From positions 1 through 33,127 of the IMG/VR virus record IMGVR_UViG_3300032240_001991: a stretch of DNA of 33,127 bases. One strand, given 5' to 3'. The notes beneath the pieces were generated by a model. That model saw only the letters and a program-made list of their open reading frames with translations. It did not search any database and was not told the DNA's origin. The DNA comes from a virus. How positions within the stretch are numbered: the stretch's first letter is position 1; each line of letters begins with the position of its first letter. Of the stretch, positions 1 through 9,850 are shown piece by piece. Both the position numbers and the translations under genes were made by a program.

Positions 1-372
1 CTTGGTCCATTAGGCCCATTAGGTCCAATTGGTCCACAGGGTGTTCAGGGCCCACTTGGTCCGTTAGGTCCAATAGGCCCGCAAGGTACTCAAGGTCCAA
101 TAGGCCCGCAAGGTACTCAAGGCCCACTTGGTCCAATAGGATTCTCAGGCAGTCAAGGCCGAGATGGCCCATTAGGTCCACTTGGTCCACTAGGCCCATT
201 AGGTCCAATAGGATTTATTGGTAGCCAAGGTATTGGTCCAATTGGATTTATTGGTAGCCGTGGACCAGTTGGTCCACTAGGTCCGCAAGGTACTCAAGGC
301 CCACTTGGTCCGTTAGGCCCAATAGGATTTATTGGTAGCTTTGGAAACCTAGGTCCTCTAGGTCCTGCAGGA
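1..372 (+). repeat. Collagen-like coding repeats (Gly-Pro-X), including an exact 27-bp tandem duplication
   Basis: In-frame 9-bp units coding for Gly-Pro-Leu/Ile run through this stretch. Bases 67-93 and 94-120 are identical 27-bp copies. A 15-bp unit coding for Gly-Phe-Ile-Gly-Ser recurs at 211-225, 244-258 and 325-339. Lengths in multiples of 9 or 27 keep the frame, so slippage here would lengthen or shorten the collagen rod without breaking the gene. Confidence 0.85.
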
Positions 373-825
373 CCCGGTACTAGTATCAATGCTACTGCGT
401 CAACGGCGGCAGGACCCTTCTTTGTTGTAGGCGTATCCGCTGCTGGCGGAGCAACACCTACTATATCAACAACCAGTCCTATCTCATTTAACGCAACTAG
501 CGGTACATTAAGTGCTGTAATACTTAATGCTACCTCAGATATTAATAAGAAAGTTAATATTTCTCAAATTAATAATGGATTAGAAATTGTAAATAGCTTG
601 ACAGGTGTTAAGTTTAACTGGAAACAAAATCAACTACCAAGTGCGGGACTAATTGCACAAGAAGTTGAACAAGTTCTGCCAGAATTGGTGTCAATTGATC
701 CAGACGGCAGCAAGGCACTTAACTATAACGGTATAATTGGTGCACTAGTTGAAGCAGTTAAGAGCTTAACCACAGAAGTTAATTCGTTGAAGCTAGAAAT
801 TGTAAATATTAAGAAAGGAAAGTAA
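1..825 (+). CDS. Collagen-like tail fibre protein with C-terminal S74-type intramolecular chaperone (5' end missing)
   Basis: The frame is open from the first base, so the N-terminus lies outside the window. About 120 codons encode Gly-X-Y collagen-like triplets, mostly Gly-Pro-Leu/Ile/Gln, interrupted by GFIGS-type spacers. A short Ala/Ser/Thr-rich stretch follows, then a C-terminal domain resembling the peptidase S74/endosialidase chaperone: a TSDINKKV start, FNWK, the GLIAQEVEQVLPELV signature, LNYN and a terminal coiled coil (LVEAVKSLTTEVNSLKLEI). In this family the domain trimerises fibres and cleaves itself off; the Ser-Asp at the domain start fits the usual cleavage position. The protein is probably a trimeric, collagen-helix distal tail fibre. 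The polyglycine protein begins 3 nt after its stop, as expected for a fibre/adhesin pair. Domain assignment is strong; the exact fibre (long or short) is unknown. Confidence 0.88.
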   Translation, partial: LGPLGPLGPIGPQGVQGPLGPLGPIGPQGTQGPIGPQGTQGPLGPIGFSGSQGRDGPLGPLGPLGPLGPIGFIGSQGIGPIGFIGSRGPVGPLGPQGTQGPLGPLGPIGFIGSFGNLGPLGPAGPGTSINATASTAAGPFFVVGVSAAGGATPTISTTSPISFNATSGTLSAVILNATSDINKKVNISQINNGLEIVNSLTGVKFNWKQNQLPSAGLIAQEVEQVLPELVSIDPDGSKALNYNGIIGALVEAVKSLTTEVNSLKLEIVNIKKGK

Positions 826-828
826 TGA

Positions 829-1698
829 ATGCCATCTAATATACTAACTGGCTCGCCCGGTGTAGACATAGATAATAAACTTGCTCCATATGTTACTGGA
901 GGTAGTTACGGAGCAATACCTGCTGCTGCTGCTACAGGTATAACATCTGCTACATTTGATCTTAATACTAGATTTGCAGCTATTGCGAGAGGTACATCTT
1001 GGACTACTGCAACCAATATACAAAAAGCCGGGGCTGACATTAATACTATATTTGCTGGAAAAGGAACCGCAGTACTATCGTTTACTTCTACACAGGCTAC
1101 TAACGCAACTCCAATTAGCGGAACATTTACTATACCAACTATTTCGCCATCAAGTAGTGCAACTCTAGTTGTATATATGGCTGGAGGTGCAGGCGGAGGT
1201 GGCGCCGGTGTTACAACTGGTGGTAAACCCAACACAAACTACGGTGGTGGTGGCGGAGGTTCGTCTGCAATTTATAGATTTAACTATTCATTAACTTCAG
1301 CAAATAGCAGTCAAACTATAACTTATACCGCAGGTGGAGCTGGAACAACATCAACTGTTTCGGGAGGTAGCGGTAATCCTGGAGCATCTAGTGCTATTAC
1401 GGGAGGAACATTTAGTCCTACTTTATGGAATATTCCCGGAGGGGGCGGTGGTGGTGGTGCAACGGTAGCACCTGCTGCTGGCGGATCAGGAGGCTCAGCA
1501 GGCGGAGGATCTACAACAGGCACTTTAGTTGTAGTTGGACAAGCAGGAACTGCTGGCGCAGCTGGAACAACTGGTACAGGAGGAACCACATCATCTAATA
1601 GTATCGTAAGCACAGGTGGGCGAGGAGGATCCTCTGGATCATTGTTTAATGCAACTACCGGAACCGGGGGCCTTGTTGTTTTTACAATACTTTATTAA
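829..1698 (+). CDS. Glycine-rich tail fibre tip / adhesin-like protein
   Basis: 289 residues. The N-terminal ~115 residues are Ala/Thr-rich and resemble a fibre-attachment region. The rest is dominated by Gly runs (GGAGGGGAG, YGGGGGGSS, GGGGGGGA, GGSGGSAGGG, GRGGSSG) separated by Ser/Thr/Val strands, ending in a hydrophobic VVFTILY tail. This pattern resembles the phage glycine-rich fibre domains and the polyglycine-II sandwich of T-even gp38-type adhesins, which bind the host surface from the fibre tip. It starts 3 nt after the collagen-like fibre stop, with AAGGAAAG upstream, so the two are probably co-translated. Adhesin function is inferred from composition and position; receptor and fold are not proven. 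Antisense open frames here are by-products of the GC-rich Gly codons. Confidence 0.65.
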   Translation: MPSNILTGSPGVDIDNKLAPYVTGGSYGAIPAAAATGITSATFDLNTRFAAIARGTSWTTATNIQKAGADINTIFAGKGTAVLSFTSTQATNATPISGTFTIPTISPSSSATLVVYMAGGAGGGGAGVTTGGKPNTNYGGGGGGSSAIYRFNYSLTSANSSQTITYTAGGAGTTSTVSGGSGNPGASSAITGGTFSPTLWNIPGGGGGGGATVAPAAGGSGGSAGGGSTTGTLVVVGQAGTAGAAGTTGTGGTTSSNSIVSTGGRGGSSGSLFNATTGTGGLVVFTILY

Positions 1699-1710: not shown

Positions 1711-2028
1711 ATGTTAACAAAAATTAGCAATGTTAAACTATATTTTGGTCTTACTGACACAGGATTACCAGATTGTTATGCCTGTAGAGATATTTTAGAT
1801 CAAGAACAAATTAGTTATGATATTATTCATTATACTGATGCTGCTCAATATAGCTTTGTATTTTCAGCTATAAATTCGTGGGGACTTGGCGAAGTAACAG
1901 ATTTTCCTTTTGTTACATGGGACGAAGAGTACGACGATCGTCCGGGGGAAGGATTTTGTAATATGGCTATAGGATCAACAGCACTACAATCAAGCACATT
2001 AGTTCAAAATAAAGGATTAATTCTATGA
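1711..2028 (+). CDS. Small glutaredoxin-like protein (first of a tandem pair)
   Basis: 105 residues. The pattern is that of a thioredoxin/glutaredoxin fold: a first beta strand (VKLYFG), a C-Y-A-C motif at about residues 22-25 before a helix, a second strand (YDIIHY), then D-F-P-F-V-T-W, where the Pro fits the conserved cis-Pro before the third strand. Phage glutaredoxins usually supply reducing power to ribonucleotide reductase, but no reductase gene is in the window and this copy sits among fibre genes, so another thiol role is possible. It overlaps its paralogue by 4 nt (ATGA). Recognition is by motif spacing only. Confidence 0.5.
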   Translation: MLTKISNVKLYFGLTDTGLPDCYACRDILDQEQISYDIIHYTDAAQYSFVFSAINSWGLGEVTDFPFVTWDEEYDDRPGEGFCNMAIGSTALQSSTLVQNKGLIL

Positions 2029-2348
2029 GTAATTTAGTTAAAATTTCTAACGTTACTATGTACTTTGGAGAAAATAATTTTTCAGAGCAATTTCAATGCA
2101 AAAATTTCTTAGATTCTAATAATATTCTTTATTCAAAAGTTATGATTATGGCAAATCCAAGTGATTTCTTTACATCTATGAGTCAAAATGTGTTTGGTGA
2201 TCTTTTTACGATGTATACCTTTTCTTCTTTTCCTATAATCACATGGACTGAATATTATGACGACTATGATAGATTTGATAACGTTTCTCAAAGTTTTTCA
2301 GAATTAACAACTAGTACACTAGTTACAAATGCTTCTTTAATTCGTTAA
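2025..2348 (+). CDS. Glutaredoxin-like paralogue lacking the CxxC pair
   Basis: 107 residues and clearly related to the preceding protein: both share SNV-(K/T)-(L/M)-YFG near the start, an FLD/ILD helix, an F-P-(F/I)-(V/I)-T-W strand followed by an acidic E-(E/Y)-YDD patch, and an SSTLV/TSTLV C-terminus. This copy has Q-F-Q-C where the first has C-Y-A-C, so only the second Cys remains and ordinary dithiol chemistry is unlikely. Its ATG overlaps the upstream TGA (ATGA), indicating coupled translation. It looks like a tandem duplication with divergence of one copy. Function unknown. Confidence 0.5.
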   Translation: MSNLVKISNVTMYFGENNFSEQFQCKNFLDSNNILYSKVMIMANPSDFFTSMSQNVFGDLFTMYTFSSFPIITWTEYYDDYDRFDNVSQSFSELTTSTLVTNASLIR

Positions 2349-2354
2349 TATAGC

Positions 2355-3044
2355 ATGTCTAATCCTTTTGATTTTTTTGATGAAATTTATTGTATAAATT
2401 TACCTAGCTCTGTTGAAAGATGGAATACGGTATCAGAAACATTCACTAAGTTAGGGATAATGCCTCGAGTTAAAAGAATTGTAGCAAGACCTCCAGATGC
2501 AGATATAATACAGGCTACTCCTGAAGGGCTGTTAAGATTAGGTATAAATTTTAATCCTATTGGAATGCTGGGCTGTAGCTTAAGCCATCTAAAAATTTTA
2601 ACTAAAGTTTTGAATAATCGTTCAAGTAATGTTTTAATCTTTGAAGACGATGTAATGTTTACTGATGTTTTTTCTTTTGAAAAATTAAATAACGCTATTT
2701 TAGAATTACCACCAACTTGGGATATCTTATTTTTAGGTGCTGATCCTGTACAACCAACTTTAAAATATTCAGAAAATCTTATTAAAGTTACTCATACATG
2801 GGGAAGCTATGCATATGCACTCAATCAGAAATGTATTTCACATATTTGTACTACAACAATAGATAATCTTACACAAGGTGGGCTTGATTATTGTTTATCA
2901 ATTTTTAGTTCAGACCTACTAGAAAAATTTTGCATTACTCCGCGAATGTGCACAGATTCGCCAGGAGTAAGTACAATGGACGGAATTTATCATGACTGGA
3001 ACATTGAATCAAATGCCAGATGGAACGAATTTGTGCCAAAATAA
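2355..3044 (+). CDS. Family 25 glycosyltransferase (LPS-type)
   Basis: 229 residues with the hallmarks of glycosyltransferase family 25 (LPS galactosyltransferase / LgtB-LpsA-like): I-N-L-P-S-S-V-E-R-W at 14-23, GCSLSHL at 73-79 and the acidic F-E-D-D motif at 96-99 preceding the donor/metal site. WDILFLG and WGSYAYAL further on also match the family. These enzymes transfer a sugar from a nucleotide-sugar donor in the cytoplasm. In a phage the acceptor could be host LPS or a virion protein; the position beside fibre genes favours surface or virion glycan modification, which is inference. It follows the glutaredoxin-like pair by 6 nt and is the last plus-strand gene before the minus-strand operon, with only 10 nt between the convergent stops and no obvious terminator. 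Confidence 0.8.
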   Translation: MSNPFDFFDEIYCINLPSSVERWNTVSETFTKLGIMPRVKRIVARPPDADIIQATPEGLLRLGINFNPIGMLGCSLSHLKILTKVLNNRSSNVLIFEDDVMFTDVFSFEKLNNAILELPPTWDILFLGADPVQPTLKYSENLIKVTHTWGSYAYALNQKCISHICTTTIDNLTQGGLDYCLSIFSSDLLEKFCITPRMCTDSPGVSTMDGIYHDWNIESNARWNEFVPK

Positions 3045-3054
3045 ATTAAAAGAC

Positions 3055-3540
3055 TTACTTTACAAATTGTCCGTGTTTTATAAGAATAATTTTAGCATCA
3101 CCAGATAATTCAATATCGTACTCTCTTGGTTTTAAATAATTTAATGCTCTAAGCGTTTTTCTATCTCCTGTACATTTACCTAATACACAATAAGCACCTA
3201 TGCCTTTTGGTAAAATAAATGTATCAGTAAGCCTTATAAATTCTGCTGTATAAGGTTTATAACTTGAAAAACATAACCAAGTCGTATCCTGAGGAAATAA
3301 CTCGTATGTATCAAAATTTAAAACAACACTGGTGTTTAAAAAAAATTCACCTTCAAAGATGTTGTTTAATTGAGCTGTTTTAGTTCTATATTCTTCTAAC
3401 CTTCCTCTATACATATAAGTAGCAAATAAATTTTTATCATATTCTCCTTGTCCTACTTCCCATATTCGACTACTATGATCGTTATGACCAACGACATTAA
3501 CTACAAACCCTGAATATTGAACAGTTAGAGTAGAGATCAT
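3055..3540 (-). CDS. Unknown protein ending the auxiliary operon
   Basis: 161 residues, no family recognised. It is rich in predicted beta strands (TVQYSGFVVNVV, VVLNFDTYEL, IGAYCVLG, AKIILIKHG), and a segment L-P-K-G-I-G-A-Y-C-V-L-G recalls the turn-strand pattern of small cupin-like proteins, but metal-binding His residues are not in a convincing cupin arrangement. Its ATG overlaps the GNAT stop as ATGA, so it is the seventh and last gene of the minus-strand run that starts at 7928. Operon position suggests it works with the acyl-transfer or modification enzymes, possibly as a binding or accessory protein. Confidence 0.6.
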   Translation of the reverse strand: MISTLTVQYSGFVVNVVGHNDHSSRIWEVGQGEYDKNLFATYMYRGRLEEYRTKTAQLNNIFEGEFFLNTSVVLNFDTYELFPQDTTWLCFSSYKPYTAEFIRLTDTFILPKGIGAYCVLGKCTGDRKTLRALNYLKPREYDIELSGDAKIILIKHGQFVK

Positions 3541-4139
3541 AACTCAAAACTAAGCGGTTTAGCTTGCCCTTTTATATGACCTGATTGATTTATGGGCGTT
3601 GAAAACATTTCTAAAGTACTTAATAAGATATTAGTTGTAACTTCGCTAGCTTGATCTACATTAATATCTTGTAATAGTTTTAACCTTGCTGCATAATGCA
3701 AATAATCGTTATTATAAAGAATACTGATATTTAACGAGGATTCAAAATCAAACTCATTGTTGCGCGCATCATATGTGCCAACGACAATGTGCGACATGTT
3801 TATAATTTTCTTCCATATTGAGTTTGAATTTTTAGTCATCATAAAATCATTAACTACTGTGTATTTTTCTTTTTCTAAAAGATATCTATAAAAAAATGTA
3901 CCAATTCCTTGATTTTGATATGAATTGAGAACATGTATTTCGTACGCTTTAACGCAGTTCTTATAATCACGCATCTTCATTAACCAAAAATATCCTATCA
4001 AATTTTCATTATCGTACATTCCGTAATATATAGAAATATCAGTAATTTTTCGTTTTAATAAAAATTTATTAAAGAATGCAACTTCTGTTGCTCCTAAGAA
4101 CAGTTGAGATGCTTCGTCAAAATTTCTGAGATCTGTCAT
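3537..4139 (-). CDS. GNAT-family N-acyltransferase
   Basis: 200 residues from the ATG that overlaps the upstream stop as TAATG; a longer ATG at 4148 is possible but less likely. The acetyl-CoA pyrophosphate-binding motif A is visible as Q-N-Q-G-I-G-T (about 75-81), preceded by the AYEIHVLNSY strand, with a helix YRYLLEKEK after it and a conserved-looking NSIWKKI motif. GNAT enzymes move an acyl group from acyl-CoA to an amine. The gene upstream in the same operon is an NDP-forming acyl-CoA-synthetase-like protein, the same two domains fused in bacterial Pat/PatZ protein lysine acetyltransferases. The acceptor here is unknown: amino sugar, small molecule and protein are all open. Confidence 0.75.
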   Translation of the reverse strand: MTDLRNFDEASQLFLGATEVAFFNKFLLKRKITDISIYYGMYDNENLIGYFWLMKMRDYKNCVKAYEIHVLNSYQNQGIGTFFYRYLLEKEKYTVVNDFMMTKNSNSIWKKIINMSHIVVGTYDARNNEFDFESSLNISILYNNDYLHYAARLKLLQDINVDQASEVTTNILLSTLEMFSTPINQSGHIKGQAKPLSFEL

Positions 4140-5416
4140 TAACCACATAATTTTTTTAACTCTTCTAATGCAGTTTCTATGTTTTGATAAACTAAAATTT
4201 TATTTTTGCGCAACACACGTATTCCAGGCGAATTGTTATGCCTACATACAAAAGCTGCTAGTTTACCGGTTAATAACTTTGCTATTTTTTTAGCAAATTC
4301 TTTTTCTTTCTTAGGATCTTCTTGCCCTGTTAAAAATAAAATTATTAAAAACGCATCTATACTAGTCTCATCTGCTAATAAAGAAATAATCTGATACGTT
4401 TTTTCAGAAAATCCAGCCGAAATACCAATTAAATCTATAGGATTGTTAATTTGGTTATTTGATCGATTTAAAATTTCTTGTATTTTTTGAACATCCGTTG
4501 TTGATATGTCAGTTAAATCAAATCCTTTAATTTCAGACTCACCGGCAGCAATTACTCCAAGCCCTCCGGTGTCGGTTATAATCATAATTTTCTTCTTTTC
4601 TTTTTGAAAATTATTAATAATAAGTAACGCAAATTCTTGAAGTGTAGATGCAACAACTGAATCAGCAATATTAATATTACCTAATTTAGACCCAGTATGC
4701 AATAAAGATGCTCTTTTTGATGCATTAGTAATCTTTGGTGATAAAAGTATCAGCGGTTTTGTTAATTTTATAAACGGAAGATTTATGCTTTCTTCTAAAT
4801 ATATAGCAATAACTTTAGTATCTTGATCTAAATTTAAGTAATCAATCATTGACGGAACTAGCGAAGTTTGATTTCCAATAGAAATAATTTTTGAAAATCC
4901 TAGTCCTGATGATGTTGTCATGCGCTCATGAAGATCAGCAATTACTCCGCCGCTCTGGGATATCATCCCAACGCTACCTGATACTGGAGATATTATTGGT
5001 AAACATTGAAACTTTTTTGACCAGACTCCTGCACAATTTGGGCCAATAAGCATACTACCTGCTTGAGAAATTTTTGATTTTATTCTGTTTTCAATATCAT
5101 AATTTCCGGTCTCTCGAAAACCAGTTGTAATTCCAATGATAACTTTTGTTCCGTGATTTAACAACTCGTCAATAACGGTTTCAAACACATACAGAGGAAC
5201 GGTAACAATAGCAACATCAATCTTTTCAGGTATTTCAGAAATTGAAGATAAAGAACGCTGATTAAAAATTAGTTCTCTTTGACGATTAATAAGATATACA
5301 TTTTTATCTTCAGTGTTTAATAATACTTGTTCAGTAATCCAATTTCCCCATTTTGTTACATTAGCAGACGCACCTACAACTGCAACAGATTTTGGAGAAA
5401 ATAAAACATCAAACAC
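4139..5416 (-). CDS. NDP-forming acyl-CoA synthetase alpha-like protein (CoA-binding/CoA-ligase domains)
   Basis: 425 residues from the GTG at 5416, which overlaps the methyltransferase stop by 8 nt like the other junctions here and lets the protein begin just before L-F-S-P-K-S-V-A-V-V-G-A-S; an ATG at 5452 would add 12 residues and a 44-nt overlap. Domains in order: a Rossmann CoA-binding domain (GAS at 15-17), GPNCAG (125-130), S-Q-S-G-G (153-157), an L-L-H-T-G-S loop whose His (about 240) aligns with the phospho-His of ADP-forming acyl-CoA synthetases, then a third alpha/beta domain (ITDTGGLGV, NNPIDL). The ATP-grasp beta part is absent, so it would need a partner to charge CoA with ATP/ADP. 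It is coupled by TAATG to the GNAT gene. Substrate unknown. Confidence 0.75.
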   Translation of the reverse strand: MFDVLFSPKSVAVVGASANVTKWGNWITEQVLLNTEDKNVYLINRQRELIFNQRSLSSISEIPEKIDVAIVTVPLYVFETVIDELLNHGTKVIIGITTGFRETGNYDIENRIKSKISQAGSMLIGPNCAGVWSKKFQCLPIISPVSGSVGMISQSGGVIADLHERMTTSSGLGFSKIISIGNQTSLVPSMIDYLNLDQDTKVIAIYLEESINLPFIKLTKPLILLSPKITNASKRASLLHTGSKLGNINIADSVVASTLQEFALLIINNFQKEKKKIMIITDTGGLGVIAAGESEIKGFDLTDISTTDVQKIQEILNRSNNQINNPIDLIGISAGFSEKTYQIISLLADETSIDAFLIILFLTGQEDPKKEKEFAKKIAKLLTGKLAAFVCRHNNSPGIRVLRKNKILVYQNIETALEELKKLCG

Positions 5417-5981
5417 GAATAATATCCCATCTTGCAACAGTGTACGGAGCATTTAATCTAAAATGAGTTCCAATATGTATCTTAGTACGTACAAATCCTA
5501 ACTTTTCAAACATTTTGTCGTATTCTTCAACTGATCGATGATATACTCCATATGGGTATGGTATACCTCTATAAGACCTTTCCATAATTTCTGCTAATAC
5601 AACGGTGTTGGTATTTTCGCATAGCCTTAGTATAATTTGATCTATTTCTTGATCATTAACCAGATGAGGACCGTTAATAAACATAGTTGTTTGACAAGGC
5701 GGTAATTCTAAAAAATTCCATGGTAAAAATCTATAAGATGGGTTTATGCGGGTTGCTTTTTTAACTGCTGACTCGCATATATCAAACCCAATATATGTTA
5801 ACGGATTAAAATTTTTAGCTAATCGACCATACCCACATCCAACATCTCTAACTGGGGAATCCCCAACAAATTCCATAACCGCTTTTACATTTTCTTCACC
5901 TTCGTAATATTCGTGACCGGTTGACCAACGAAAATAATTAATTCCTTCAGTTTTCCAAAAATTTACATCTATAGAAGTCAT
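5409..5981 (-). CDS. Class I SAM-dependent methyltransferase
   Basis: 190 residues from the ATG that overlaps the sulfotransferase stop as ATGA; an ATG at 5993 would give a 16-nt overlap. Motif I of class I methyltransferases is clear: V-R-D-V-G-C-G-Y-G-R (about residues 45-54), followed by the acidic strand-2 end Y-I-G-F-D-I-C and a helix with AVKKA. A later MFINGPHLVND segment fits motif IV. The fold binds S-adenosylmethionine; the methyl acceptor cannot be read from the sequence. It is the fourth gene of the minus-strand operon, between the sulfotransferase and the acyl-CoA-synthetase-like gene, so it may act on the same product. Confidence 0.78.
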   Translation of the reverse strand: MTSIDVNFWKTEGINYFRWSTGHEYYEGEENVKAVMEFVGDSPVRDVGCGYGRLAKNFNPLTYIGFDICESAVKKATRINPSYRFLPWNFLELPPCQTTMFINGPHLVNDQEIDQIILRLCENTNTVVLAEIMERSYRGIPYPYGVYHRSVEEYDKMFEKLGFVRTKIHIGTHFRLNAPYTVARWDIIRV

Positions 5982-6736
5982 AGCTGATCCCATCCTCTTG
6001 CTATTAAATTATTTTTAAAGTCAATAGGAATTCTATCTAACACATCTAATTCTAATTTTCTTAAAAGGTCAGGTGGCGGTAATTCTTTATTTTTTACAGT
6101 TTCATATGTATTAACTTTTTCTTGAGGAAGACTTGTAACTGTTGGGAGAGAAAAGAAATTTAACATATCATTAAAATGATTCACGTCTAAAATTTTGTCA
6201 ATATTTGTTTCCCAACACAACGATCCTTTCTCTTTTGCGTAATTGTAATAATACTGTGCTCTTTTTTCGCATTCGCATGCATACCAAAAACAAAGTTGAT
6301 AGGTATGCGCCTTTTCCCAATTAGCAAACGGCAAAACATTTGGTTCGTTTGGAATATTAAACCAGCACATATAACCAGGATGTTTTCCAGGAATCCAATT
6401 TAGTTGAAAAAGGCTTGATGCTATTTTTCTAGGATTCCTACGCAATATCACAATTGTTGGAATTATGCCAAAGTCGTAAAAATATTCAAGACATCCCTTA
6501 GATACTGATTGATCTGTATTTGTGTAAGTTTTTCCTGGTAATTGTTGAATGTAGTTAAGATGTTCCTTAACAAATTTTTTTCCAATTTCAGGATTTAAAA
6601 TGTTTGCCTGTCTTACTGAGCTAAAGCTAGGTTCTCTTTCATGTTCTGAAAAATTATTAGGAACTTGAGCAAACAATCTGCTAAGTAAAAAAGTTCCAGA
6701 TCTTCCTGAAGAAATTGTTAGAGTAATTGGTTTCAT
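5978..6736 (-). CDS. PAPS-dependent sulfotransferase
   Basis: 252 residues. The N-terminal S-S-G-R-S-G-T-F-L-L-S (about 9-19) is the 5'-phosphosulfate-binding loop of sulfotransferases, and V-I-L-R-R-N-P-R-K-I-A-S-S-L-F (about 96-110) is the 3'-phosphate-binding strand-helix with its conserved Arg and Ser. The enzyme would transfer sulfate from PAPS to a hydroxyl or amine on an acceptor such as a glycan or lipid. It starts with TAATG at the end of the second oxygenase gene, so translation is coupled. A hydroxylated product of the two upstream oxygenases could be the sulfate acceptor; this is inference from gene order. Confidence 0.8.
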   Translation of the reverse strand: MKPITLTISSGRSGTFLLSRLFAQVPNNFSEHEREPSFSSVRQANILNPEIGKKFVKEHLNYIQQLPGKTYTNTDQSVSKGCLEYFYDFGIIPTIVILRRNPRKIASSLFQLNWIPGKHPGYMCWFNIPNEPNVLPFANWEKAHTYQLCFWYACECEKRAQYYYNYAKEKGSLCWETNIDKILDVNHFNDMLNFFSLPTVTSLPQEKVNTYETVKNKELPPPDLLRKLELDVLDRIPIDFKNNLIARGWDQL

Positions 6737-7326
6737 TATATTTCAATATACGATGAGTTAGCAATTGGTTTTTGCAAAGGGTCATATGCAAAACAAGTTA
6801 AAGAATATTTAATTCCTCTTTTAAGAGTATCGGTATGATGCCGATGAGTGAGCACTCCGGGCCAAAAAATTGCAGTACCTACAGGTAAATCTTTTGTGTT
6901 AAAGTTTTGACGAGGAAAATATAAATCACACCCACTAAAATCGTTATTAAGTTTAATATTACAAGAAATTAGACCAATATCAATATGAGACCTAATTTTA
7001 ACTGCGGTATCTAGGCTATATCGAAGGAAGTACGGACTAAAAAGTTTAAGATCATAAAAGAACCATTCTTTTTTAAGAAGTGGAACAACTTTAGTAAGAT
7101 AGTGATTTTTAAATTCTACAGTAAATTCTTGATCAAATGTAATTGAGTTTAAGTAGTATGTACTAAAATTCATGTCTACAGGATCTGGCGCAAACTGATG
7201 TTTTTGATTTTCAAGTCTTTCTACTAAATCTTGACAAAATTCTTTTGTCCAAAAAGGACATATTAGAATATCGTCTTTAATAGTATATTCTCCAAAATTA
7301 GAATCAATGGCACTAGTGTAATTCAT
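6736..7326 (-). CDS. 2OG-Fe(II) oxygenase, prolyl-4-hydroxylase-like (second copy)
   Basis: 196 residues. Iron ligands are visible as H-I-D (H114, D116) and a distal His in L-T-H-R-H-H (H161 or H163). Lys at about 173 in R-G-I-K-Y-S-L takes the place of the usual Arg that binds the 2-oxoglutarate carboxylate, as in prolyl 4-hydroxylases. It is a paralogue of the preceding gene: both have F-W-T-K-E-F-C, LYFPRQ/LHFPRQ and WPG-(V/M)-LTH. Such enzymes hydroxylate peptides, lipids or small molecules. The ATG overlaps the upstream stop (ATGA). Many marine T4-like phages carry 2OG-Fe(II) oxygenases, usually with unknown substrates. Confidence 0.82.
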   Translation of the reverse strand: MNYTSAIDSNFGEYTIKDDILICPFWTKEFCQDLVERLENQKHQFAPDPVDMNFSTYYLNSITFDQEFTVEFKNHYLTKVVPLLKKEWFFYDLKLFSPYFLRYSLDTAVKIRSHIDIGLISCNIKLNNDFSGCDLYFPRQNFNTKDLPVGTAIFWPGVLTHRHHTDTLKRGIKYSLTCFAYDPLQKPIANSSYIEI

Positions 7327-7928
7327 GGTTTAAGAACAAAACTAACACCTGACGGATCAAACCATTGAAGAGGCGGCCAAGAAAAAGATACAAACGTATA
7401 TTTTTTCCCTTTAGTAAGTTCAGTTACATAATGAGGATGAGTTAGCATTCCCGGCCATATCATTGCATAACCAATTGGAACATCTTGTCCGCAAAACTTT
7501 TGTCGAGGAAAATGTAACTCACAGCCTTCATAATCGTCGTTTATTCTCATGTTTATAGTAATAACACCTTCGTCTGTATGTTTTAAAAGATCTCGATTTT
7601 CGTCCATTGAATAACGAACAAAATATGGAGTAAAAACACCAGGGACGTCCATTTGAACTGCTCGTTGAATCATCCATTCTTTTTTTAACATAGGAATAAT
7701 ACTATTTTTATAATGATCGGCAAAAGATACGACGTAATCTCGTCCTATATCATTTAATCTTAGTATGCGCATGTCGTCATAGGTAGTAACAAATCGGTCT
7801 GAATACCTTTCACATGCCTCAACCATTTCGGCACAAAATTCCTTTGTCCAAAAAGGAGTCACAATAATATCATTATGGATTTCATATTTTCCAAAATCAG
7901 GATGCAGACCGCTGTGGTAATGATTCAT
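7323..7928 (-). CDS. 2OG-Fe(II) oxygenase, prolyl-4-hydroxylase-like (first copy, operon lead gene)
   Basis: 201 residues. The HxD motif is K-H-T-D (H117, D119), the third iron ligand lies in L-T-H-P-H (H164 or H166), and Lys at about 176 (GKKYTF) aligns with the 2-oxoglutarate-binding basic residue. The fold is the double-stranded beta helix; VPIGYAMIWPG is the typical penultimate strand region. It leads the seven-gene minus-strand operon, with an AATAAATA late promoter octamer 24 nt upstream and only a weak purine-rich ribosome site. Tandem duplication with the next gene suggests two related hydroxylations or different substrates. The substrate is unknown. Confidence 0.84.
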   Translation of the reverse strand: MNHYHSGLHPDFGKYEIHNDIIVTPFWTKEFCAEMVEACERYSDRFVTTYDDMRILRLNDIGRDYVVSFADHYKNSIIPMLKKEWMIQRAVQMDVPGVFTPYFVRYSMDENRDLLKHTDEGVITINMRINDDYEGCELHFPRQKFCGQDVPIGYAMIWPGMLTHPHYVTELTKGKKYTFVSFSWPPLQWFDPSGVSFVLKP

Positions 7929-7985: not shown

Positions 7986-8411
7986 TTAAATTAATTCTAG
8001 CAATAACTCTAACTTAGTTTTAATGATCTTATTTGAAAGAGAAGTCTTAACACCGCGATGCAAGGGTTTAGGCCATGCATCATAATCGCACCATGCATAT
8101 CCTTGATGTTCAGAATTTAATACAGGAATAAATTCTTTATCTACCAACAACACATAGGTATTATACTGAAATCTCTGGTCCCTACTAACAAATAACTCTA
8201 AGGGAATTACTTTACTAATAGGCGGAGGGTTGCCTACCTCTTCAGCTACTTCTCTCATAAGAGTATCGTAAGGAGTAAAATCGGTTGGATCTTTTTTGCC
8301 TCCAATCAGTCCCCATGTATTGGCTGTTTTTCCGTGTGCCCTTAATAGAAATAAAAATCGTTTAGTATCTTTAGCTAAAAATAATCCGCCTGCACAGTTT
8401 ATTTCTATCAT
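7986..8411 (-). CDS. Nudix hydrolase
   Basis: 141 residues from the ATG that overlaps the gp15 stop as ATGA; an in-frame TTG at 8426 gives a 5-residue extension that I reject. The Nudix box is recognisable as G-L-I-G-G-K-K followed by R-E-V-A-E-E-V-G (53-60), giving the metal-binding Glu residues; the first Glu of the classic GX5EX7REUXEEXGU pattern is not in its usual place. N-terminal CAGGLFLAKDTKRFLFLLR is the usual opening strand pair. Nudix enzymes cleave nucleoside diphosphates linked to another group, for example oxidised dNTPs, nucleotide sugars or NAD(H). It is translationally coupled to gp15, so expression is late. Substrate not predictable. Confidence 0.82.
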   Translation of the reverse strand: MIEINCAGGLFLAKDTKRFLFLLRAHGKTANTWGLIGGKKDPTDFTPYDTLMREVAEEVGNPPPISKVIPLELFVSRDQRFQYNTYVLLVDKEFIPVLNSEHQGYAWCDYDAWPKPLHRGVKTSLSNKIIKTKLELLLELI

Positions 8412-9850
8412 AATATCATACGCCAATCTGTATTTTCATAAACACCGTCGTAAGACTTAGACCATTGCTCACCATTCCATTTATATTGTATATTTGTATA
8501 TGCGTTTGTAATATAAGTTGTAGATGTAGTTACAGTAGAATCAAACAGCACCCACCATTGAGTACCATCCCATTGTATTATATCGTTGGCGTTTGCTTTA
8601 ATTCCATGGGGTTGTCCAGTAACAGGCGCTATACTACTCCATGCGTCTGGCCCTTCTACAGTATCATTAAGCACTACGTCATCTAGTATTAGATATCTTC
8701 GATCAATGTTCTGGCCAGAAACAGAATGAGGATTAAATGTCTGAGGATTTACAATAGCATCTATTGTTCCTCTACTATAAGTATCAGTATGATCAGTTAA
8801 AATAGTATTAGCAGGAACGGTATCAACGTCAACCGACAAGTTCATTAAACAGGCATTAAAAGGATTCAACGACATGTAAGCTACAATTTCATGACCGTCT
8901 GGTTTGCCTAATCTTAGTTGACTTAATCCCGATGTAAATTTGCCAGGATATAGGTCTAGAATGTTTAACCACGAAGGACGATTTGGAACATTATCTACAG
9001 TAACCCATCCCGTACTGACATTGTCTTCTCCTACTGGAACTAGAACAGCGACATTATCTAAAATTAATAACTTATAATCTTGAGGAGTAAGGGTAACCCT
9101 AGCAGTTGGTTCTAATCCTCCAAAGATATTTCCTCCATGAAGAGCATCTTCATATCCTCCTGCCTTGCCTGTGCCAACAGGCTCTTCAAATATATTAGCA
9201 ATAATTTTTGTAATAATGCCTAACTTCTTAACCTTTGCAGGAGGTGTGATCCAAATAGGTGCAGTAAACTGTAAGGTAGCAATACTTAGATCGTTATTAA
9301 GACCTTGTGGAACTGTTTTACTTTCAAAAACACTACCTTCTGTAATTTCTAAATAACTTAAACTAGTCCAGTCAACGTAGTTGTCTGTTGTTTGGATCTC
9401 CATACTAGGGTTAAACAACACTGTGATCTGTTCCCATAGCTGAAATTTTTGATCAGTATTAGTGGTCCAAATATCTGCATTAAATGTAATTACATAGGGC
9501 GTAGGCATTAAACGTTCGATGGTGTAATTTGCACCTTGTGTGTTTAAATATTGTTGATTAGCATCGTCAAATGCTCTTTCTCTAATATGCATCTTATTAA
9601 CATATGTAGGATTCTGCATTCTTGGGCGATCAAATTTTATATCTTTAATGTAACAAGCAATAAATGGAGCACTCTGAAGAATGTTTTCTGTATTTTTGTT
9701 TAAAATAGTTCCTACTTGTCGAGTCATGTCACCATAACGAACCGGAACTTGTATAATCTTTCCTGAACTATCTTTATAGGCAAAGTTACTCATTAATCTC
9801 ATAAACTGAGTTAGGTAGCGTTTTACCTGCCCGTCATAAAAATGTTCCAT
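8408..9850 (-). CDS. gp15: gp15-like tail sheath stabiliser / neck protein with long C-terminal extension
   Basis: 480 residues, against about 270 in T4 gp15. The N-terminal half carries features I associate with the gp15 family: an F-Y-D-G-Q-V-K-R-Y-L-T-Q-F opening, V-P-V-R-Y-G-D-M-T-R-Q, S-A-P-F-I-A-C-Y-I, R-L-M-P-T-P-Y and N-A-D-I-W-T-T-N-T-D-Q-K-F-Q-L. gp15 forms the hexameric ring capping the tail tube and sheath, to which the gp13/gp14 neck attaches. The C-terminal ~200 residues are extra and contain I-Q-W-D-G-T-Q-W-W and Y-K-W-N-G-E-Q-W, aromatic modules also seen in gp14 and gp18 of this phage. It starts one base after the gp14 stop (TAATATG). Family call is good; the extension has no assigned role. 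Confidence 0.82.
   Translation of the reverse strand: MEHFYDGQVKRYLTQFMRLMSNFAYKDSSGKIIQVPVRYGDMTRQVGTILNKNTENILQSAPFIACYIKDIKFDRPRMQNPTYVNKMHIRERAFDDANQQYLNTQGANYTIERLMPTPYVITFNADIWTTNTDQKFQLWEQITVLFNPSMEIQTTDNYVDWTSLSYLEITEGSVFESKTVPQGLNNDLSIATLQFTAPIWITPPAKVKKLGIITKIIANIFEEPVGTGKAGGYEDALHGGNIFGGLEPTARVTLTPQDYKLLILDNVAVLVPVGEDNVSTGWVTVDNVPNRPSWLNILDLYPGKFTSGLSQLRLGKPDGHEIVAYMSLNPFNACLMNLSVDVDTVPANTILTDHTDTYSRGTIDAIVNPQTFNPHSVSGQNIDRRYLILDDVVLNDTVEGPDAWSSIAPVTGQPHGIKANANDIIQWDGTQWWVLFDSTVTTSTTYITNAYTNIQYKWNGEQWSKSYDGVYENTDWRMIL

Follow-up and report, generated by a model that had tools for sequence, protein, structure and literature searches.

A phage-encoded alpha-type acyl-CoA synthetase protein without ATP-grasp in a tail-adjacent cassette of putative modification genes

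In ADP-forming acyl-CoA synthetases (the ACD superfamily), the phosphohistidine sits in a swinging loop of roughly 20 residues, which has been proposed to shuttle phosphate over some 30 angstroms to the ATP-grasp domain and back (excerpts of PMC11494057 and PMC8163506). DddX, a dimethylsulfoniopropionate lyase, has the phosphohistidine and uses ATP (excerpts of PMC8163506), and FdrA/AllF of Escherichia coli is a part of oxamic transcarbamylase that uses carbamoyl phosphate and needs AllG and AllH (excerpts of PMC11326118). We analyzed a stretch of 33,127 nucleotides (the window; positions 1–33,127 of the 326,658-base virus record IMGVR_UViG_3300032240_001991) in which a minus-strand gene at 4139..5416 encodes an alpha-type ACD protein of 425 amino acids that has the phosphohistidine residue and no ATP-grasp, while the adjoining minus-strand gene at 3537..4148 encodes a 203-residue member of the GNAT superfamily. 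With less than even confidence, we tentatively favor a role for the alpha protein as an ATP-grasp-free acyl-CoA or acyl-phosphate enzyme in a tail-adjacent modification operon; FdrA/AllF may serve as a precedent for ATP-free, acyl-phosphate-type work with obligate partners.

Scans of viral contigs identified seven that carry relatives of this cassette, the same seven whether the query was the alpha protein or a 161-residue protein from its far end. By alpha sequence, the resulting eight loci fall into four kinds (the window; L093; L094, L095 and L096; L099, L100 and L101). The alpha gene begins with GTG at 5416, the mechanical open reading frame (ORF) opening at 5452; six of the seven viral relatives use the equivalent start residue and L093 starts five residues earlier. 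Pfam recognizes Succ_CoA_lig (5e-17) and CoA_binding_2 (9e-14) and no ATP-grasp in the chain, which bears out a preliminary annotation from the letters alone (the sequence-only reading) that had described a synthetase-like protein as limited to CoA-binding and ligase domains, the ATP-grasp missing. The NCBIfam model for the acetate–CoA ligase alpha subunit, TIGR02717, matches with an E-value of 1.8e-71 at 241 bits, under its curated cut-off of 567. The CoA-binding, flavodoxin-like and ligase domains are all present, in the order 1-2-5. An AlphaFold2 model of the protein (pLDDT 89.4) matches ACD structures over its whole length (Z of 32.0 for 9y43, 30.9 for 2csu and 30.4 for 4ybz), with high root-mean-square deviations (8.4–9.7 over 403–414 residues) that probably arise because the domains are set differently, and it matches PatZ less well (Z of 26.9 and 25.8). 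Between the relatives L095 and L099, the ratio of nonsynonymous to synonymous substitution rates (dN/dS) of alpha is 0.08.

The LLHTG loop lies at 4705-4691. Its histidine, His240 (codon at 4697..4699, minus strand), is the expected phosphohistidine and falls on the HTGS loop when aligned to 2csu and 4xyl, in agreement with the phospho-acceptor role first proposed for it. In one alignment, the equivalents of His240 and Glu208 (codon at 4793-4795, minus strand) are present in all eight phage alphas and in 71 of 71 cellular proteins; comparison with ACD alphas and PatZ, suggested at the outset as a check, confirmed the His and found PatZ itself to be without it (a gap at the His column in E. coli PatZ, and a Lys in the Pat of locus L006). 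The 71 proteins come from 84 cellular loci, 13 of which gave no ORF hit under a longest-ORF filter; E. coli PatZ and the L006 Pat are not counted among them, and the set leans to fusions because it was selected by similarity to the window alpha and three fusions. The segments flanking the loop differ sharply in length: Glu208 to Lys220 spans 12–15 residues in the eight phage alphas versus 18–20 in the 71 cellular proteins, and His240 to Gly284 spans 43–44 residues versus 53–84, the ranges being without overlap (the His-to-GG segment has 50 residues in PatZ and 54 in the L006 Pat). Full-length segments around the His loop, a feature of working ACD ligases, are therefore absent from the phage alphas, and their shortening would remove the need for, or the ability to make, the proposed phosphate-carrying swing. 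None of the His, Glu, SQSG and GG sites varies among the phage alphas, which are about 40% identical to the window protein.

A working ACD ligase also needs an ATP-grasp domain, carried either by the chain itself or by a partner gene, and we found neither in the virus. ATP-grasp_5 (PF13549) and ATP-grasp_2 (PF08442) had no match in the entire 326,658-base record, whose completeness is not stated, while the same searches gave matches in each of the 14 control genomes, above the cut-off in 10 and 11 of them. PF13549 had no match in the seven relative viral contigs, which are fragments.

The phage alphas form one clade (support 100/100), nested in a fully supported 14-row group in which all 10 cellular rows are single chains longer than 670 residues. 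Their exact sister group is weakly supported (68/44), and the tree has long branches. When the phage alphas were placed in a clade with PatZ and the L006 Pat, or with the wider Pat branch (L011, L021 and L061), approximately unbiased (AU) tests rejected the arrangement (p-AU 8.6e-5 and 1.3e-4, respectively; an earlier tree held 62 of 80 rows and the AU-test trees 32 hand-chosen rows, with long branches noted). A split version of Pat, the central proposal of the sequence-only reading, is accordingly not supported by descent, nor by synteny, the direct pairing of the two modules being seen in the window alone. Cellular relatives are mostly long (64 of the 71 ORFs have at least 650 residues), and the other seven have 447–535 residues, including the archaeal L015 and L017 (447 residues). 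A phage-alpha profile at E ≤ 1e-55 matched one of 398 genomes (L013's own) and five of 395; among the matches at this threshold, with weaker ones not listed, all lay in fusion-size open frames of 691–714 residues, and none of alpha size appeared across the 793 genomes. We infer descent from a single-chain alpha-beta acyl-CoA ligase whose ATP-grasp half was lost. Two cellular ACD-ATP-grasp-GNAT fusions in the PatZ branch (L021, 7959-10679; L011, 7791-10706) carry the phosphohistidine, and to judge from this residue their synthetase part might be active.

The GNAT matches Acetyltransf_1 at 24.2 bits (cut-off 20.7; the L094 GNAT alone falls below it), and no other PF00583 match at E ≤ 0.001 occurs in the record. 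Its likely start is the ATG at 4148 (MWL...), common to the five GNATs aligned, and the alpha and GNAT genes overlap by 10 bases (ATGTGGTTAA). The TAATG first taken as their junction is present, but the likely start places the junction in this overlap instead. The same overlap occurs at the GNAT start in four of four relatives checked, with a methyltransferase gene upstream instead of alpha. The GNAT loop has been defined as Arg/Gln-x-x-Gly-x-Gly/Ala (excerpts of PMC8556138); it reads QNQGIG in the window and MGQGIG or MGKGIG, with Met for Arg/Gln, in the four relatives aligned. Between L095 and L099 the GNAT dN/dS is 0.015, with synonymous sites near saturation. The window GNAT model has a pLDDT of 72.5 (43–55 for the other four models) and matches GNAT domains with Z of 8–9.5, Streptomyces lividans Pat scoring 8.3 against the best 9.5. 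These matches are tied across protein, polyamine, aminoglycoside and other acetyltransferases, with no preferred substrate class; the amino-sugar class contributes one glucosamine N-acetyltransferase, 5kf1, at rank 28. Against a viral library, other phage proteins lead the matches, and several of these carry the name NAT_SF.

The composition of the cassette is partly constant. All eight loci encode alpha, a protein with weak likeness to sulfotransferases and the 161-residue protein, while the GNAT is in the cassette in seven of the eight (BLAST homologues of 30–34% identity in six of the seven viral contigs). The sequence-only reading presented the two modules as neighbors, and this holds for the window and, more loosely, for the seven loci that carry both in one cassette, but in the six relatives two genes stand between them. 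There, alpha is followed by ORFs of 192, 306 or 315, and 153 residues (163 as called in L101), which are a 2-oxoglutarate (2OG) oxygenase, a methyltransferase and the window-GNAT homologue (families checked in L094). In L093, whose contig is shared with L092, the sulfotransferase-like gene comes directly after alpha with no GNAT between. The row closes in all seven relatives with the sulfotransferase-like gene, the gene for the 161-residue protein and then a small opposite-strand gene. A glycine-rich adhesin-like gene is near the cassette in 8 of 8 loci; in the seven relatives, the ORF before alpha is the glycine-rich one of L092 or one that matches it. A collagen-like or related fiber ORF lies upstream in the window, L092, L095, L096, L099 and L101; the L094 and L100 contigs begin too close to the cassette to reveal one.

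Between the window and L095, alpha is 38% identical, the sulfotransferase-like protein 42% and the 161-residue protein 41%; the terminases are 31% identical over 508 residues (40% over 173 residues for the partial L094 terminase). That the cassette proteins are more alike than the terminases suggests that lineages have exchanged the module or that it is strongly constrained. In the L095–L099 comparison, the dN/dS of six cassette genes is 0.015–0.12, indicating purifying selection. The first single-sequence and alignment scans for viral relatives of alpha and the GNAT came back empty; relatives surfaced once plasmid-borne single-chain ligases were added to the alignment, and then with cassette neighbors and phage alphas as queries. 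Pattern scans had low sensitivity (the sulfotransferase-like scan recovered four of seven known carriers), and the rarity of the cassette can therefore not be taken from them. The cassette is not annotated in the 36 kb of phage PA5oct or the 41.6 kb of Sinorhizobium phage Phosso examined, so its presence throughout the close jumbo-phage lineage was rejected, and neither phage is among the INPHARED matches to the window alpha. Four INPHARED matches named 'Bacteriophage sp.' were set aside, as the two inspected (L005 and L006) look bacterial by eye, one carrying a transposase-like gene and one a Pat-like fusion. The L094 alpha matched nine INPHARED records: besides these four, there were five weaker, partial ones covering 27–55% of the query, two of them annotated sucD. 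The window GNAT had no match in INPHARED or plasmids, and the L094 sulfotransferase-like and 161-residue-type proteins had none in INPHARED. The searches of open-license papers listed none on a phage ACD-alpha cassette.

Taken together, an acyl/CoA/phosphate site that is kept and an ATP side that is gone make a CoA-side half-reaction the likeliest chemistry. The phage alpha would run just the acyl-phosphate/acyl-CoA side (acyl-phosphate + CoA <-> acyl-CoA + Pi), via a phosphorylated His or not, and would so make or hold a particular acyl-CoA. The GNAT could then transfer the acyl group from the alpha-supplied acyl-CoA, both the hand-over and the nature of the acyl group being guesses, and the whole cassette might decorate a phage fiber or adhesin, or a host surface molecule, the target again being a guess. 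The adhesin-like gene at every locus suggests the fiber as target. A bolder version, which we regard as a long shot, is a new kind of acyl activation without ATP-grasp: the His would be charged by acyl-phosphate or by the P-loop-like cassette protein, and the GNAT would acylate the collagen-like fiber and the adhesin, alongside hydroxyl, methyl and possibly sulfate groups, tuning host recognition. Several points weigh against an ATP-grasp-free enzyme working with the GNAT on a fiber. The analogy with FdrA is imperfect, since FdrA lost the His that the phage alphas keep, and a phosphoryl donor may still exist. The completeness of the record is not given. The GNAT is missing from one of eight cassettes and is thus no obligate partner; the constant companions of alpha are the sulfotransferase-like and 161-residue proteins. 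The fiber or surface target is suggested by gene position alone. Because His-bearing Pat-like fusions exist (L011 and L021), the kept His is by itself no argument against a Pat-like role. Finally, alpha-size cellular proteins do exist (the seven of 447–535 residues), and two-gene ACDs are, by these lengths, a possible source of the phage alpha.

A target glycan rather than a protein is possible but doubtful: the cassette would make a modified sugar or small molecule, with the GNAT acylating an amino sugar. The record does carry a nucleotide-sugar cluster at 156–173 kb (RfbH, a dehydratase and, by eye, glycosyltransferase-like genes), which makes a host surface glycan the chief alternative target, and a glycosyltransferase of family 25 (GT25) adjoins the cassette. 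That cluster, however, is about 150 kb away, the GNAT prefers no sugar acetyltransferase (5kf1 at rank 28), and 2OG oxygenases near collagen-like fibers suit protein modification equally. It is unlikely that alpha is a non-catalytic CoA-binding scaffold organizing the cassette enzymes. Its missing ATP-grasp and shortened loops would fit, and FdrA is described as an ACD-fold protein serving in a multi-protein enzyme (excerpts of PMC11326118), but the invariant His, Glu, SQSG and GG across such divergent phages (about 40% identity to the window) argue against it.

We consider a two-component Pat-like device, in which a catalytically inactive alpha would sense acyl-CoA and thereby activate the GNAT to acylate host or phage proteins, distinctly unlikely. 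In Pat, the ACD domain binds acetyl-CoA and is required for GNAT activity (excerpts of PMC8556138), both modules share a cassette in seven of eight loci and adjoin in the window, and the L011 and L021 fusions show that Pat-like ACD-GNAT proteins can keep the His. On the other side stand the AU rejection of a clade with Pat, the lack of the ATP-grasp part that L011 and L021 have, the separation of the modules in six relatives with the GNAT missing in another, and the retention of site residues when E. coli PatZ is without the His. A looser functional link between alpha and the GNAT is possible. Very unlikely, in our judgment, is a complete ligase in which the phage alpha and a borrowed host ATP-grasp (beta) subunit make acyl-CoA from ATP, an option that the sequence-only reading had raised. 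The catalytic His and Glu are kept in 8 of 8 phage alphas and seven of 71 cellular relatives are alpha-size (L015 and L017 among them, at 447 residues), but the nearest cellular kin are single-chain fusions (64 of 71 ORFs of at least 650 residues; 10 tree rows of more than 670), no alpha-size match was listed at E ≤ 1e-55 in the 793 genomes (weaker matches not listed), and both segments flanking the His loop are short in all eight phage alphas.

The remaining genes place the cassette in its setting. By its sequence, the source virus belongs to the T4-like jumbo myoviruses: it shares 54% terminase identity with Pseudomonas phage PA5oct, and the window genes, judged by eye, follow an order like the one annotated in that phage (head-tail adaptor, nucleotide kinase, tail sheath, tail tube, terminase). 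Between 7928 and 3055 on the minus strand, seven genes each overlap their neighbor by 1–16 bases: two 2OG-Fe(II) oxygenase-like genes (7323..7928, phrog_61 E 7e-12; 6736..7326, phrog_61 E 1e-13; the products are 43% identical paralogues), the sulfotransferase-like gene (5978..6736), an S-adenosylmethionine methyltransferase-like gene (5409..5993; Methyltransf_25 E 2e-4, below the cut-off), alpha, the GNAT and the gene for the 161-residue protein (3055..3540). The product of 5978..6736 is P-loop-like (an SSGRSGT motif by eye) and only weakly sulfotransferase-like, failing the family cut-off (Sulfotransfer_3 E 0.03, 15 bits against 27) and having no PDB profile match; homologues of 40–43% identity occur in all seven viral contigs, of which the L094 protein matches Sulfotransfer_1 (E 0.0014, 18.5 bits against a cut-off of 22) and the L093 protein has no match. 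The window methyltransferase-like protein aligns poorly with the methyltransferases of the relatives. The 161-residue protein, of unassigned family, has homologues of 40–43% in all seven viral contigs and no Pfam, PHROG or credible PDB match. A NUDIX hydrolase gene (7986..8426, minus strand; PF00293, 47.5 bits) heads the cassette. The cassette (3055-7928) has a G+C content of 31.7% versus 37.3% in window positions 8408-33127; the difference is small in the relatives.

Genes on the plus strand comprise the C-terminal part of a collagen-like tail fiber (1..825; PF01391 at 4-177 and 235-372), a glycine-rich tail adhesin-like gene (829..1698; phrog_863 E 0.004), two related genes for small proteins of 105 and 107 residues (1711..2348; all seven relatives have a homologue past the end of the cassette, encoded on the opposite strand, and the one window protein tested had no PHROG match) and GT25 (2355..3044; PF01755, 40.7 bits, cut-off 24). 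PF01391 matches 42 times across the record, including at its other end (325707-326657), and the collagen-like fiber frame appears to cross the record end into the window start, pointing to a possibly circular or permuted record. Collagen-like repeats also occur at record positions 317077-320103. GT25 is also the family of collagen galactosyltransferases. With the 2OG oxygenases and GT25 near a collagen-like fiber, collagen modification is an idea. Within the nucleotide-sugar cluster (record positions 158455-165353, locus L125), 4-hydroxy-2-oxovalerate aldolase, acetylating acetaldehyde dehydrogenase and RfbH exceed their NCBIfam cut-offs, and an RmlB-like dehydratase and a thiamine diphosphate-dependent, acetolactate-synthase-like enzyme are below their equivalog cut-offs; the cluster presumably resembles a deoxy- or branched-sugar pathway. 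In the same locus, a RuBisCO large-chain-like gene (170049-171242; PF00016, 123 bits; type III model below the equivalog cut-off) adjoins a sugar nucleotidyltransferase-like gene. Downstream of the window, a second cassette (L003, 14176-16982) has methyltransferase-like and glycosyltransferase-like genes by eye, and a 315-residue ORF in the record part at 53–73 kb (L004, 11520-12467) looks prohibitin/SPFH-like by eye.

The alphas described here are an ACD lineage that is phage-only within the searched data. Purifying selection acts on it, and the phosphohistidine site persists although the half that uses ATP is missing. The phage alpha, were it active, would be a small, testable model of the alpha half working alone. 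The cassette, common to distantly related myoviruses near receptor-binding genes, makes multi-enzyme decoration of a fiber or host surface a concrete question.

Compared with known systems, the phage alpha is closest in architecture to the ACD alphas (Ca. Korarchaeum ACD1, 4xyl and 4ybz; Pyrococcus horikoshii PH0766, 2csu), with 24–27% identity, Z of about 30 and a shared set of domains 1-2-5, CoA site, SQSG and GG helix starts, Glu and phospho-His; unlike them, it has no beta or ATP-grasp partner in its record, has shorter His-loop segments (measured against the 71 cellular proteins) and scores below the TIGR02717 cut-off. By identity (29–33%) and by tree, its closest cellular kin are the single-chain acetate–CoA ligases of Rhizobium, Sinorhizobium, Microvirga and actinobacteria, which share its KWG/KYG motif region but have 684–732 residues and carry ATP-grasp_5 (checked in L008 and L013); the R. 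gallicum ligase, unlike the phage alpha, has catabolic-looking gene neighbors. Pat/PatZ proteins of types I and II combine an ACD-like CoA-binding part with a GNAT, as the phage cassette does, but in one chain, whereas the phage parts are separate genes in the window and the six relatives with both; E. coli PatZ is without the His that the phage alpha and some Pat-like fusions (L011 and L021) keep. DddX is an ACD superfamily member with Z of 26.4 to the phage alpha model. Rac of phiKMV-like phages is, like the window GNAT, encoded by a phage (excerpts of PMC7552054). In FdrA/AllF, also an ACD-fold relative, Pfam finds the CoA-binding and ligase domains but no ATP-grasp, as in the phage alpha; FdrA/AllF differs in its 19% identity, its lost His and an extra N-terminal stretch.

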